Source: Immundisolibacter cernigliae
GTDB taxonomy: Bacteria > Pseudomonadota > Gammaproteobacteria > Immundisolibacterales > Immundisolibacteraceae
Reading direction: 5' to 3'
Length of the DNA: 64,000 nt
NCBI RefSeq assembly: GCF_001697225.1
Contig: NZ_CP014671.1
Location: 2,666,001-2,730,000 of the forward strand
The position numbers were made by a program, and so were the translations under genes. This document shows positions 37,984-43,536 of the stretch, piece by piece; within the stretch, counting starts at the first letter, position 1; every line of letters begins with the position of its first letter. Under the pieces are notes generated by a model. The model made no database searches, had not been told where the DNA came from, and worked only from the letters and a program-made list of their open reading frames with translations.

Positions 37984-38052
37984 CGGCCGGTCACGCGCAC
38001 CCCCGGACCGGCTACCATTGCCGCCCTTTTCCGATGCCAGGAGGCCCTGCCC

Positions 38053-39027
38053 ATGTTGACCAAAGATGATGTCCGCGGCGTATCTGCCATGATCCCGACG
38101 CCGTGCAAGGAAGGGCAGGGCGGCTGGCAGTACGAGGATTCGGTCGATCTTGACGAAACCGCGCGCATGACCGAGCAGCTGATCGCCGCCGGTATCGGCT
38201 CGATCGCCGCCAACGGCACTACCGGCGAGTGCGCGGCGCTGACGCTGGAAGAGAAACTCGCCTTCACCCGCACCATCATCGAGGTGGCGCGCGGCCGGGT
38301 GCCGGTGTTCGCCGGCATCACCACGCTGGGCACCAAGGAAACCGTGCGCCAGATGCGCAAGTTTCGTGAGCTGGGCGTGGAAGGCGGCTTCGTCGGCCTG
38401 CCGCTGTGGCAGACCCCGACCATCACCAACTCGGTCAAGTTCTATGCCGATCTGGCCGAGGCAGTGCCGGAAATGGCGCTGATGGTTTATGCCAACCCGC
38501 TGTTTTTCAAATCGACCTTCCCGGTCGAGTTCTGGGAAGGCGTCGGCAAGCACTGCCCGACGGTGGTCACCTGCAAGTACGTCGGCAACCTGATGGACCC
38601 GAAGAACATGCTGATCGACCTGCCGGCCAGCATGGACGCCGCGCCGCATGTGCAGTTCCTGCCGATCGACTTTGCCGCGCCGATGGCTTACGACCTGGTC
38701 GGCGATCGCCTCAAGGGCATGTGGTCGACCAGCTGCGCCATGGGGCCGGAGCCGGTGGTCGCCCTGCAGCGAGCCATCGACGCCGGCGACAAGGCGCGCA
38801 TGGGCGAGATCATGCACGACCTGCACGGCCTGCCCAACGCCATCCCGGACTTCAAGGAATTCTCCAAGTACAACGTGCAGGTGGAAAAAATCCGCTGCAA
38901 CGCCGCCGGCTACATCAAGGCCGGCCCGTGCCGCGCGCCGTACGAGGACCTGCCGGACGACTGGCGCGCCCTGACCGTGGCCAGCGGCAAGGCCTGGGCC
39001 GAGCTGTGCGCGCGTAAGTACCGCTGA
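38053..39027 (+). CDS. NahE-like trans-o-hydroxybenzylidenepyruvate hydratase-aldolase
   Basis: The 324-residue class I aldolase belongs to the DHDPS/NAL superfamily. Schiff-base Lys175 lies in VTCKY, with Tyr146 in VYANP. The C-terminal EFSKYN...KAGPCRAPY and the SGKAWAEL end closely resemble naphthalene and phenanthrene hydratase-aldolases rather than DapA. Such enzymes cleave an aromatic side-chain pyruvate adduct to an aldehyde and pyruvate. A TACCAT -10-like box lies at 38013-38018. A ring-hydroxylating dioxygenase follows 203 bases later; no ring-cleavage enzyme is present. Confidence 0.87.
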   Translation: MLTKDDVRGVSAMIPTPCKEGQGGWQYEDSVDLDETARMTEQLIAAGIGSIAANGTTGECAALTLEEKLAFTRTIIEVARGRVPVFAGITTLGTKETVRQMRKFRELGVEGGFVGLPLWQTPTITNSVKFYADLAEAVPEMALMVYANPLFFKSTFPVEFWEGVGKHCPTVVTCKYVGNLMDPKNMLIDLPASMDAAPHVQFLPIDFAAPMAYDLVGDRLKGMWSTSCAMGPEPVVALQRAIDAGDKARMGEIMHDLHGLPNAIPDFKEFSKYNVQVEKIRCNAAGYIKAGPCRAPYEDLPDDWRALTVASGKAWAELCARKYR

Positions 39028-39037
39028 CACGTAGCCT

Positions 39038-39079
39038 CCGGCATCCGTCGTTCGGCTTTGCGCCGCCGACGGATGCCGG
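39038..39079. repeat. long-stem hairpin after the hydratase-aldolase gene
   Basis: A 13-bp perfect stem, CCGGCATCCGTCG and its reverse complement, encloses a 16-base loop containing CGGCTTTGCGCCG. GTAG precedes it at 39031-39034, as in the other GTAG palindromes. There is no T-run. It could slow transcription between the aldolase and the dioxygenase genes or protect the upstream mRNA. Confidence 0.7.
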
Positions 39080-39230
39080 GCGTATTGACTGGCTCCATCG
39101 AGCAGGCCGGGCGGCGACACGTTCAACCCCGGACTCGCCGGGGGCGCACCATGTCGCTTCGTCCTTTATCATGACGTGCCTGTGCCGACCGCACGGTCAG
39201 CGCCTTTCCCTTCACCCCGCGGAGGCCCCC

Positions 39231-40580
39231 ATGCGCATCCAAGACATCACCTGGCGCATCGTCGACAAGCCGGGCGAGACCTTCAAGGTCCACCGCTCGC
39301 TGTACACGGACCCGGACCTGTTCGAGCTCGAGATCAAGCACGTCTGGGAGGCGACCTGGATCTACATCGGCCACGACAGCCAGATCCCCAAACCCCACGA
39401 CTACCTGACCACCGTCATCGGCCGTCAGCCGGTCATCATCAGCCGCGGCGCCGATGGGCAGCTGCGCGGCTTCATCAACGCCTGCTCGCACCGCGGTGCC
39501 ATGGTCTGCCGCAAGGCACGCGGCAATGCCAAGCACTGGGCCTGCCCGTACCACGGCTGGGTCTACAACAACCAGGGCACGCTGCTGGACGTCAAGGACG
39601 AGGCCGGCGGGGCCTATCCGGACGACTGGAGCAAGGCCGACTATGGCCTGACGCCCGTGCCGCACGTGGCCAGCTACCACGGCTTCATCTTCGCCAGCCT
39701 GAATGCGGACGTGCCGGACATCAAGACCCACCTGGCCGCGGCCGCGCCGTTCCTGGAGCTGTTCGCCAACCAGTCGGTGGATGGCCTGGAGGTCCTGCGC
39801 GGGCACTCGGTCTACACCCACCGCGGCAACTGGAAGATGCAGGCCGAAAACGGCGTCGACGGTTACCACGTCGACATCGTGCACGCATCCTACTTTCGCC
39901 TGGCGCAGGAGCGCGCCAAGCAGGCGGCGGCGGCCGGCGGCACCGACAACGTCAAGGCCATCAAGGTCGACCTGCACAACACCCAGAACGGCAATTACGA
40001 CCTGGGCAACGGCCACGTCATGATCTGGTCGGACGTGCCCAACTTCCGCGACCGGGCGCTGGGCATGCAGTACGACGCCCTGGAAGCCCGTGTCGGCCCG
40101 CTGCAGGCCAAGTGGATGGCCGGGCGTTTGCGCCAGGTGCTGATCTACCCCAACGTCATCCTGTTCGACGGCATCTCCACCCAGCTGCGCTCGTGGCGGC
40201 CGATCGCGCCGGACGAAACCGAGGTCCACGCCTACTGCGTGGCCCCCAAGGGCGAATCGGTCGAGGCACGCGAGCGGCGCGTGCGCCAGTACGAGGACTT
40301 CTACGGTGCCAGCGGCATCGCCACGCCGGATGACCTGACCGAGTTCGACGCCTGCCAGAGCGGCTACGCCGGGCGCAACGCCGAGTGGCAGGACTTCGAC
40401 CGCGGCATGAAGCGGCGCATCGTGGGCGCCGATGAGCCGGCGCGTGAGCTGGGCTTCCAGCCGCAGGTCAGCGCCAGCCGCTTTGCCGACGAGACGCTCT
40501 ACCACGGCGAGTACCGCCACTGGCTGAAGCTGATGACCGAAGGCCTGCGCCGCGAGGAGGCCAAGCGCCATGCGGCCTGA
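39231..40580 (+). CDS. aromatic ring-hydroxylating dioxygenase, alpha subunit
   Basis: The 449-residue Rieske oxygenase large subunit has the [2Fe-2S] ligands C85-x-H87 and C105-x2-H108. Mononuclear iron ligands His213 and His218 lie in ENGVDGYHVDIVH, with the bridging Asp210. It resembles benzoate/anthranilate/salicylate-type alpha subunits. The GGAGG at 39221-39225 fixes the start at 39231. It overlaps the beta-subunit gene by 11 bases. No ferredoxin or reductase gene is beside it, so electrons must come from a component encoded elsewhere. Confidence 0.93.
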   Translation: MRIQDITWRIVDKPGETFKVHRSLYTDPDLFELEIKHVWEATWIYIGHDSQIPKPHDYLTTVIGRQPVIISRGADGQLRGFINACSHRGAMVCRKARGNAKHWACPYHGWVYNNQGTLLDVKDEAGGAYPDDWSKADYGLTPVPHVASYHGFIFASLNADVPDIKTHLAAAAPFLELFANQSVDGLEVLRGHSVYTHRGNWKMQAENGVDGYHVDIVHASYFRLAQERAKQAAAAGGTDNVKAIKVDLHNTQNGNYDLGNGHVMIWSDVPNFRDRALGMQYDALEARVGPLQAKWMAGRLRQVLIYPNVILFDGISTQLRSWRPIAPDETEVHAYCVAPKGESVEARERRVRQYEDFYGASGIATPDDLTEFDACQSGYAGRNAEWQDFDRGMKRRIVGADEPARELGFQPQVSASRFADETLYHGEYRHWLKLMTEGLRREEAKRHAA

Positions 40581-41073
40581 TCCCGTGCTCAAGGACGCCG
40601 TTATCGAACTGCTGCTGGAAGAAGCCGACTGCCTGGATGAGCGCCGCTGGCACGACTGGCTGGCCCTGTACCAGGACGATGCCGTCTATTGGGCGCCGTC
40701 CTGGGACGACGACGACGTGCTGATCGACAACCCGAAGGGTGAGATCTCGCTCATCTACTGCGGCAACCGCGACCGCATGGGCGACCGCGTGTGGCGCATC
40801 GAGTCCGGGCTGTCCTCATCCCTGCTGCGCCTGCCGCGCACGCGGCATTTCGTCACCAACATCCGTCTGCGCCAGGCGACGGCCGACGAAGTCATTGCCA
40901 CCGCCAATTTCCAGGTCAACACCTACAAACACGAAGAACAGCGCACCGACATGTTCTTCGGCCATTACCGCTACCGCCTGACACGCGCGGGTGAGGCGCT
41001 GCAGATACGCGAGAAATACATCGTGGTCTGCAACGACATCATTCCGCGGCAGATGGATATCTTCAACGTCTGA
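40570..41073 (+). CDS. aromatic ring-hydroxylating dioxygenase, beta subunit
   Basis: The 167-residue SnoaL-like cone-fold subunit has LLEEADCLDERRWHDWLALYQDDAVYW-type N-terminal segments, DRVWRIESG, RTRHFVTNIRL and REKYIVVCND. It stabilises the alpha3beta3 hexamer of Rieske dioxygenases. It starts inside the alpha gene (11-base overlap), so translation is coupled. A strong intrinsic terminator lies 27 bases after the stop and ends the transcript. Confidence 0.92.
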   Translation: MRPDPVLKDAVIELLLEEADCLDERRWHDWLALYQDDAVYWAPSWDDDDVLIDNPKGEISLIYCGNRDRMGDRVWRIESGLSSSLLRLPRTRHFVTNIRLRQATADEVIATANFQVNTYKHEEQRTDMFFGHYRYRLTRAGEALQIREKYIVVCNDIIPRQMDIFNV

Positions 41074-41099
41074 GCGGCGGCGCTCGGACGGCGGAATGG

Positions 41100-41132
41100 G
41101 CCCGGTCGGCGGATGTCGACCGGGCTTTTTTT
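41100..41132 (+). terminator. intrinsic terminator of the dioxygenase transcript
   Basis: A perfect 9-bp stem GCCCGGTCG (41100-41108) and CGACCGGGC (41117-41125) has an 8-base loop followed by seven T residues. It lies between the dioxygenase beta gene and the convergent hcp gene and is oriented for the former. Confidence 0.92.
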
Positions 41133-41183
41133 GTGTCTTTGACGATGTCCGGATGGCGAAGGGCGACGGCCCGCCGTGCCCGG

Positions 41184-42845
41184 TCAGGCTGCCGTCAGCA
41201 TGGCGTCCAGGTCCGCCTGCGGCTCGCCGATCGGCGTCAGGGCAAAGGTGTCCACCAGCACCTGCACCACCGCCGGGGTCAGGAAGGCCGGCAGGCTTGG
41301 GCCCAGGCGGATGTTGCGCACGCCAAGGTGCAGCAGCGTCAGCAGCACGGCGACTGCCTTTTGCTCCAGCCAGGACAGCACCAGCGACAGCGGCAGGTCG
41401 TTGACGCCGCAGTCGAAGGCATCGGCCAGCGCCAGTGCGATCTGGATGGCCGAGTAGCTGTCGTTGCACTGGCCGACGTCGAGCAGCCGCGGCAGGCCGC
41501 CGATGCTGCCGAAATCGTGGTCGTTGAAGCGGAACTTGGCGCAGCCCAGTGTCAGGATGGCGCAGTCCTGCGGCACCTTTTCGGCCAGTTCGGTGTAGTA
41601 GTTGCGGCCCGGCTTGGCACCGTCGCAGCCACCGATCAGGAAGAAGTGCTTCAGCGCGCCGGACTTGACCGCGCCGACCACCTGTTCGGCGGCGCCCAGC
41701 ACGGCGTTGCGGGCAAAGCCGACCGTGATGCTGCGCGGCGCAGCGTCGGTCGCAAAGCCCGGCGTCGCCAGCGCGGCCTCGATCACCGGGCGGAAGTCGC
41801 GGCCGGCGATGTGCGGCACCTGCGGCCAGCCGACCGGGCCGCTGGTGAAGATGCGCGCGCGGTAGGCCGGCTGCGGCTCGATCAGGCAATTGGAGGTCAT
41901 CACGATGGCGCCCGGAAATTCGGCGAACTCCGTGTGCTGGTTCTGCCAGGCGGTGCCGTAGTTGCCGGCCAGGTGCGGGTAGCGCTTCAGGCCCGGGTAG
42001 GCGTGCGCCGGCAGCAGCTCGCCGTGGGTGTAGACGTTGATGCCCAGCCCGGCGCTTTGTTCGAGCACCTGCTCCAGGTAGCGCAGGTCGTGGCCGCTGA
42101 CCAGGATCGCCTTGCCGGCGCGCGGCGTGGTGCGGACCTCGGTCGGTTCCGGATGGCCATAGCGGCCGGTGGCGGCGGCGTCGAGCTGCTGCATTACCTG
42201 ATAGTTCAGGGCGCCGACTTCGAGCGCCCGGCCCAGCAGGTCATCCACGCCGGTCGGGTTTTCAGCCAGGAAATTCAGCAGGCGGTGAAATTGCGCGTAG
42301 ATGGCCGGGTCGTCCTGATCCAGCACGTGGGCGTGCTCGAAGTACGCCGCCGCGCCCTTTATGCCGTACAGCACCAGCGCGCGCAGGCCGACCACATCGG
42401 CGCCGACGCGATCCAGGCCGACCGTGATCGCGCCTTCCCGGGCCTTTTGCAGCAACTGGTCCATGGCCTGGCCGGGGTCGCAGGCGGCCGGGCCGGCGAG
42501 TTGCTCGGGCACCTGGCCGGCCTTGGCGCAGACCGCTTCGTAGCAGGCCCTGGCGCGCTCGCGCATGGCGGTGGCCTGGCCGATCAGCGTCTCGAAACGC
42601 GCCGGGTCGAAATTGACGTTGGTCAGCGTGGTGAACAGGCTCTCGATCACGAACACGTCCACGTCACGGTCGCGGGCGCCCAGCTCGGCCGCTCGGTGGG
42701 CGTACATCGACACGCCCTTGACCAGATGGATCAGCAGATCCTGCAGGTCGGCGGTAACGGCATCCTTGCCGCAGGTGCCGACGACGTTGGCGCAGCCGTC
42801 GCCGGCGCGGGTGCGGGTGGTCTGTTCGCACTGGTAACAAAACAT
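41184..42845 (-). CDS. hcp: hydroxylamine reductase / hybrid-cluster protein
   Basis: The 553-residue Hcp starts MFCYQCEQT. Its N-terminal cluster cysteines are Cys3, Cys6, Cys18 and Cys25; later Cys residues in SNCLI, TLGCAKF and VGQCND belong to the hybrid Fe-S-O cluster. Hcp reduces nitric oxide (and hydroxylamine) and promotes protein S-nitrosylation under anaerobic nitrosative stress. CAGGAG lies at the right distance from the ATG at 42845. It is divergent from nsrR with a clear NsrR site between. No hcr reductase is adjacent. Confidence 0.96.
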
Positions 42846-42908
42846 GGAAGTCTCCTGATCGGGTGGTCGCAGCAGCCGCATGGCCGGATACGCCGCCTGG
42901 CGCATCTG

Positions 42909-42931
42909 AAGTTGCATTTTGAATACATCAA
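42909..42931. promoter_or_regulatory. NsrR operator between hcp and nsrR
   Basis: AAGTTGCATTT, one T, then GAATACATCAA form an 11-1-11 inverted repeat. The left half matches the known NsrR half-site AAGATGYATTT at 10 of 11 positions and the right half, read on the other strand, at 8 of 11. It lies in a gap flanked by the regulator and its most conserved target. Confidence 0.8.
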
Positions 42932-43056
42932 TAAGAGCGGTCTTGACGGCAGTCAGGTGTGCAATGGCGTTGCCAGCGGCCCAGAAGAAGGCGCGGCACA
43001 TAATTCACCGGCGGGTACTGCGCCCCGTCATCCGAACCGCCACGCCAACGACACCG

Positions 43057-43536
43057 ATGCAACTGACGCTGTTTACCGATTACTGCTTCCGGGTGCTGAT
43101 CTACCTTGCCCAGCAGCCGCAGCGGCGCGTCACCGTCACCGAACTGAGCGACTACTACGGCATTTCCCGCCACCACCTGGTCAAGGTGGTGCACTGGCTG
43201 GGCCGCCAGGGCCACGTGACGACCAGCCGCGGCAAGCAGGGCGGCCTGCGCCTGGCGCGGCCGGCCAAGGACATCAACATCGGCCAGGTGGCGCGCACCA
43301 CCGAGCCGGGCTTTGACTTGGTGGAGTGTTTCGATGCGGCCACCAACACCTGCCGCATCCTGCCGCAGTGCGGCCTGGCCGGCGTGCTGATGGGCGCGAC
43401 GCGGGCCTTTCTGGCCGAACTGGATCGCTACACGCTGGCCGATCTGAGCGGGCGCCCGCTGCCAGTCGCGCCGGGCGAGGTGCGCTTGGGAGACCGCCCC
43501 GAGCGTGCCGGCGCAGCCCGGACGGGGGAGGGCTGA
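43057..43536 (+). CDS. nsrR: nitric-oxide-sensing Rrf2-family repressor NsrR
   Basis: The 159-residue protein has an N-terminal winged helix (MQLTLFTDYCFRVLIYLA; recognition region GISRHHLVKVVHWL) and the three Fe-S ligands Cys91, Cys99 and Cys105. Cys91 matches the E. coli numbering. The Fe-S cluster reacts with NO and DNA binding is lost. The ATG at 43057 fits the family start; the longer open frame does not. It faces hcp across an NsrR-like operator and may also repress itself. The C-terminus is longer than usual and Arg/Gly-rich. Confidence 0.93.
   Translation: MQLTLFTDYCFRVLIYLAQQPQRRVTVTELSDYYGISRHHLVKVVHWLGRQGHVTTSRGKQGGLRLARPAKDINIGQVARTTEPGFDLVECFDAATNTCRILPQCGLAGVLMGATRAFLAELDRYTLADLSGRPLPVAPGEVRLGDRPERAGAARTGEG

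Follow-up and report, generated by a model that had tools for sequence, protein, structure and literature searches.

A NahE-type hydratase-aldolase beside a BenA/XylX-family oxygenase in Immundisolibacter cernigliae TR3.2: a likely module of a dispersed PAH pathway with shared reductases

Our analysis of a 64,000-nucleotide stretch of the Immundisolibacter cernigliae TR3.2 chromosome (NZ_CP014671.1, positions 2,666,001 to 2,730,000; hereafter the window) suggests that a three-gene cassette in it is likely to be one module of a dispersed PAH pathway, comprising a NahE-type aldolase and a type II oxygenase that runs on shared reductases. The data directly support the family membership of the encoded proteins, the integrity of their catalytic residues, the absence of partner genes nearby, the presence of candidates for most of these partners elsewhere and the scarcity of reductases. 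As described for NahE, the aldolase would convert a hydroxyaryl-2-oxobut-3-enoate, formed by ring cleavage and subsequent isomerisation, to an aromatic aldehyde and pyruvate. The alpha and beta subunits would together form the terminal component of a type II, benzoate/toluate-like oxygenase system whose substrate is an aromatic carboxylate, and would be reduced directly by one or other of two BenC-like reductases used in common with other oxygenases, with the first oxygenation, NahC-like ring cleavage, NahD-like isomerisation and aldehyde oxidation presumably encoded at other loci.

Strain TR3.2, a soil bacterium that lives on polycyclic aromatic hydrocarbons (PAHs) and has a genome of 3,243,537 bases (PMC5054325), received the name Immundisolibacter cernigliae only later (reference cited in PMC9535955). 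Reading frames, protein families and terminator all confirmed the arrangement that a first-pass annotation had proposed for the cassette, namely three genes on the plus strand, for aldolase, alpha and beta, followed by a strong terminator (Table 1); the start of the beta gene overlaps the stop of the alpha gene. The longest open reading frame of the alpha gene begins at 39171, and the start given in Table 1 is likelier because a GGAGGCCCCC-ATG ribosome-binding site directly upstream of it is kept in two related genomes. The gap between the aldolase and alpha genes spans 203 bases and holds a strong hairpin, for whose stem no second copy was found in the window or in the fetched genome stretches. 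At the equivalent position, a hairpin of different sequence is present in G404 (z -4.4), while none is clear in STE_186 (z -0.1). A search for a sigma-70 promoter found none. Aldolase, alpha and beta are likely to be co-transcribed as a single transcript. In TR3.2 the cassette has cydAB on one side and a CBS-domain gene on the other. Window 41184-43536, between beta and the latter, holds a hybrid-cluster-protein-like gene and an Rrf2-type regulator, both missing at that place in two related genomes.

Table 1. Features of the cassette (window positions) and partner-type genes in the genome stretches examined (genome positions; none of these genes lies in the window)
Feature	Position	Strand	Basis or remark
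Ribosome-binding-site region of aldolase (CAGGAGGCC)	38037..38048	+	kept in two related Immundisolibacter genomes
NahE-type hydratase-aldolase, 324 aa	38053..39027	+	PF00701, solved relatives, residues, tree
Aldolase-alpha intergenic hairpin, strong, with a perfect 13-base stem and without a T run	39038..39079	+	z = -4.6
Terminal oxygenase alpha subunit, BenA/XylX (type II) family, 449 aa	39231..40580	+	TIGR03229, tree, motifs
Terminal oxygenase beta subunit, BenB-like, 167 aa	40570..41073	+	PF00866, TIGR03232, BenB 3e99
Intrinsic terminator, 13-pair stem then T run	41098..41133 (stem 41098-41127)	+	
NahC-like	genome 2805488-2806387		51% to NahC, 63% to pNL1 BphC
NahD-like	genome 2398016-2398615		
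Rieske ferredoxin	genome 2395672-2395983		55% to pNL1 ferredoxin
NdoB-like	genome 2373863-2375221		46%
C23O-like	genome 2882497-2883399		36%

Residues, solved relatives and tree agree in identifying the aldolase as NahE-like with Lys175, as the first-pass annotation had stated. The protein was assigned to PF00701 in a profile search, and its nearest solved relatives were NahE (6dao, 257 bits) and PhdJ (6dan, 200 bits), well above any DHDPS (55 bits). In the alignment Lys175 occupies the position of the family's Schiff-base lysine, and the Y146-x-N148 motif is also present. W119, W224 and N274 are kept in all 25 in-frame NahE-type rows and are missing from the nine DapA-like paralogues. The PF00701 proteins of the genome that were compared and are not of NahE type have kept the lysine and the tyrosine but not N148, W119, W224 and N274. 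In the tree, from which NAL references were left out, the aldolase did not join DapA, one of the two groups (DapA/NAL) named beforehand as alternative placements, and fell into a 25-row clade (99/99) with NahE, the pNL1 protein and a Rhodococcus protein. Assignment to the DapA or HpaI type was likewise rejected, the weak NCBIfam matches lying far under their cut-offs and both tree and residues contradicting it. The alignment with NahE of pDTG1 is full-length at approximately 42% identity with the catalytic residues kept; however, NahE has nahC, nahD, a diol dehydrogenase gene and an aldehyde dehydrogenase gene as neighbors, none of which adjoins the aldolase of the window. A second NahE-like aldolase is encoded at genome 144351-145403, 1.6 kb from another alpha-beta pair, on the opposite strand and with one gene between. 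At least eight DHDPS-like proteins of the genome (78, 127, 301, 571, 971, 1220, 2533 and 2884 kb) make up an expanded clade of their own, distinct from both the DapA and the NahE types; most of them begin with a TRSEAKxWA-like motif.

The alpha subunit matched PF00355 and PF00848 in the profile search, and its ligands are intact (Rieske C85/H87/C105/H108; iron H213, H218 and D368; bridging D210). Its best family model was that of BenA (493.6 bits, under the cut-off of 780.95), and it scored 385 bits with the AntA model (cut-off 672); since both scores fall short, benzoate itself is perhaps not the substrate. Identity amounted to 44-47% with BenA/XylX, 29% with NdoB and 24-26% with sphingomonad salicylate 1-hydroxylases. 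In a tree constructed without characterised AntA, CbdA and TftA (no AntA reference was found above the cut-off in 143 genomes), the protein is a deep branch inside a 39-row BenA/XylX family clade (100/99), where it forms, with its Immundisolibacter and Rugosibacter relatives and a 71% paralogue at 212 kb, a clade that is sister to all other BenA/XylX-like rows. This clade is separate from the AhdA1c/d-type salicylate 1-hydroxylase alphas and from NdoB, and on identity and tree position we rejected both a salicylate 1-hydroxylase (AhdA1c/BphA1c) and a NahAc/NdoB type. Positions that align with the NdoB pocket differ from BenA, for example F312 and W322 in place of M and T. The beta subunit scored 121 bits with PF00866 and 139 bits with TIGR03232 (cut-off 226), and its solved relative is BenB. 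Given the scores, identities and tree position of alpha and the BenB-like beta, the earlier view that alpha is nearer to benzoate, anthranilate and salicylate types than to NahAc is right for benzoate/anthranilate and wrong for salicylate. As judged by sequence comparison, alpha forms a new branch within the BenA/XylX oxygenases. The pair shares with BenAB/XylXY the family, the alpha-beta architecture and the iron and Rieske motifs, but is set apart by its separate branch, its score under the curated cut-off and the lack of an adjacent benC/benD.

All genome-wide statements made here draw on family searches together with the window and approximately 0.34 Mb of other genome sequence. The 3.24 Mb genome contains 65 Rieske oxygenase alpha catalytic domains and 44 betas (for example at 248-268 kb and 2.37-2.40 Mb), and for 39 of the 65 alphas a beta is encoded no further than 1.5 kb away. 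By contrast, PF00970 (FAD_binding_6) detected only three proteins, one flavohaemoprotein (above its cut-off) and two BenC-like FNR_N reductases (genome 184844-185872 and 2379132-2380208), located about 0.33 and 0.7 Mb from the cassette. A family search, which would detect GR-type reductases only if they carry a Reductase_C domain, found no Reductase_C protein in the genome. An FNR_N reductase is encoded at a distance of up to 5 kb from only two of the 65 alphas. With so many alphas and betas and only two BenC-like reductases, a lone alpha-beta pair is the rule in TR3.2, and its helper genes are placed elsewhere. The window itself gave no match at E <= 1e-4 with NahB, NahC, NahD, NahF, C23O, NdoA, NdoR, BphC, the pNL1 ferredoxin, a BphA4-like protein, BenC or BenD, in line with the earlier observation that reductase, ferredoxin and ring-cleavage genes are missing from it. 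The idea of a dedicated electron-transfer operon just outside the window was rejected because the 20 kb on each side matched no reductase or ferredoxin; another alpha is found there at 2736.6 kb. The statement that dioxygenases need a ferredoxin and a reductase holds here for the reductase only, since type II (BenA/XylX) oxygenases normally use a single reductase and no ferredoxin (PMC2358900). The further suggestion that reductases are shared with other dioxygenases agrees with the ratio of alphas to reductases, and electron transfer is very probably shared among the oxygenases of this genome. Sharing has a precedent in sphingomonads, where a single ferredoxin and a single reductase serve seven oxygenase pairs; this common set, AhdA3/A4, also supports XylXY (PMC4048848).

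PMC9535955 reports 21 xylX copies for Immundisolibacter cernigliae, along with their expansion and with transfer involving Rugosibacter; this number follows the xylX criterion of that study, whereas ours is a count of Pfam domains, and its accessible sections describe neither a pairing with an aldolase nor a shortage of reductases. Two of the alpha matches (genome 2231066-2231596 and 2771684-2772325) have an in-frame stop (TGA, TAG) and may be pseudogenes or sequencing errors, so that not all 65 are intact genes. At genome 2750358-2753659 two similar alpha genes stand in tandem, followed by one beta.

Genes resembling those for the partner steps were detected at other loci (Table 1). The search for ferredoxin and reductase genes that the first-pass annotation had advised returned a Rieske ferredoxin and the two BenC-like reductases, and its proposal of a modular PAH pathway is well supported by NahC-, NahD-, NdoB-, ferredoxin- and C23O-like genes scattered over the genome, which support a putative pathway of dispersed organization. 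Two very similar plant-type [2Fe-2S] ferredoxins (genome 2807246-2807692 and 2809029-2809337) are encoded near the NahC-like gene and a BenA-family alpha. A search of the accessible literature found no transcriptome of Immundisolibacter cernigliae on PAHs.

Two other Immundisolibacter genomes, with GyrA 90-96% identical, share the aldolase-alpha-beta order, its strand and its location after cydAB; the next genes downstream of the cassette differ. In Rugosibacter, orthologues of the aldolase (88-89%) and of alpha-beta (82-84%) reside at separate loci, with the oxygenase among housekeeping genes such as dnaK; in Rugosibacter-like genomes the aldolase orthologue is the first gene of an operon for the lower pathway of catechol meta-cleavage (HMS dehydrogenase, DmpE, DmpF, DmpG, DmpH and tautomerase). 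UBA5602 has the aldolase without a close alpha (best 46%). Since GyrA of TR3.2 is only 59-63% identical to that of Rugosibacter/Rhodocyclaceae genomes, the much higher identities of aldolase and alpha suggest that both were recently exchanged between gamma- and betaproteobacterial PAH degraders. An exchange of this kind was proposed earlier for part of the xylX copies in Immundisolibacter cernigliae (PMC9535955). The Rugosibacter/Rhodocyclaceae genomes compared are metagenome bins, in which single contigs may be mis-binned, but independent bins agree and the neighboring genes differ from those of TR3.2. In the metagenome-assembled genome STE_186 the cydAB-aldolase region occurs twice, in differing versions (L022 and L027, 91% and 95% to TR3.2), and this bin therefore probably mixes two strains.

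The cassette is a variation on a layout already known from other PAH degraders. On the sphingomonad plasmids pNL1, pLA1 and pF2 an aldolase gene is located next to BphA1e/A2e, with the same order and strand of aldolase, alpha and beta; like the cassette, this unit has no ferredoxin or ring-cleavage gene, and few electron-transfer genes serve many oxygenases. However, the pNL1 alpha belongs to another family and is 26% identical to that of the window (the aldolases approximately 41%), and on the plasmids, unlike in the window, the unit is followed by an amidohydrolase and RidA, with an annotated FAD-dependent oxidoreductase approximately 1-2 kb away.

With 65 alphas in 3.24 Mb, chance alone would place at least one of the three NahE-like aldolases no more than 1.7 kb from an alpha with a probability of about 0.24, which makes adjacency alone weak evidence; conservation in three Immundisolibacter genomes is better evidence. 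The earlier proposal that the cassette joins two steps was not borne out, as the orthologues are unlinked in Rugosibacter and this alpha is missing from UBA5602, which does have the aldolase; the pair thus need not act in one pathway, and aldolase and oxygenase probably serve the same broad PAH metabolism. It is conceivable, though not the reading we favor, that the adjacency is incidental and that two separately acquired catabolic genes came to lie between cydAB and the CBS-domain gene in a genome saturated with oxygenases. The chance estimate, the strong hairpin in the 203-base gap, the unlinked loci in Rugosibacter and identities of 82-89% as compared with 59-63% for GyrA, which suggest transfer of each gene, are consistent with such an origin, which explains less readily why order and strand were kept in three genomes despite different next downstream genes and why sphingomonads show the same order. 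We consider it rather unlikely that the cassette is a true two-step unit, in which the aldolase would make an o-hydroxyaryl aldehyde, an unlinked dehydrogenase would turn this into salicylate or hydroxynaphthoate, and 1-hydroxylation of that acid by the neighboring oxygenase would give a catechol. Besides the unlinked Rugosibacter genes and the UBA5602 aldolase without this alpha, the 24-26% identity to salicylate 1-hydroxylases, a separate alpha (genome 2372422-2373759) that groups with these enzymes at 100/100 and the 71% alpha paralogue without an aldolase argue against it, although the order is fixed in the three Immundisolibacter genomes, the same order with an unrelated carboxylate-type alpha on sphingomonad plasmids suggests recurrent pairing, and the BenD-like diol dehydrogenase missing from the window is unneeded for 1-hydroxylation. 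Still more doubtful is a scenario in which a benzoate-family oxygenase evolved in Immundisolibacter for the aldolase-derived acid (salicylate or hydroxynaphthoate) and was fixed beside the aldolase, convergent with the sphingomonad aldolase-BphA1e pair, with two reductases powering approximately 65 oxygenases.

The oxygenase might also be a plain benzoate or toluate 1,2-dioxygenase that uses BenC- and BenD-like proteins from other loci. BenA is its best model (494 bits), it is 44-47% identical to BenA/XylX, and candidate FNR_N reductases and SDR dehydrogenases exist at other loci; however, the score is far below the BenA cut-off (781 bits), alpha falls outside the clade containing BenA and XylX, and positions aligned with the NdoB pocket differ (such as F312 and W322), which renders this assignment improbable. 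For the preferred reading, a module of a dispersed PAH pathway, also counts the 88-89% aldolase orthologue at the head of the meta-cleavage operon in Rugosibacter-like genomes. Counted against it are the strong hairpin between aldolase and alpha, the chance that the genome encodes GR-type reductases without a Reductase_C domain, the separation of the genes in Rugosibacter together with the lack of this alpha in UBA5602, and the scores below the BenA and AntA cut-offs, by which benzoate may not be the substrate.

The TR3.2 genome announcement named two oxygenase large-subunit genes (PMC5054325). The finding of 65 alphas and two BenC-like reductases in 3.2 Mb goes beyond it, and TR3.2 is well suited to the question of how small a set of electron donors can suffice for many oxygenases.
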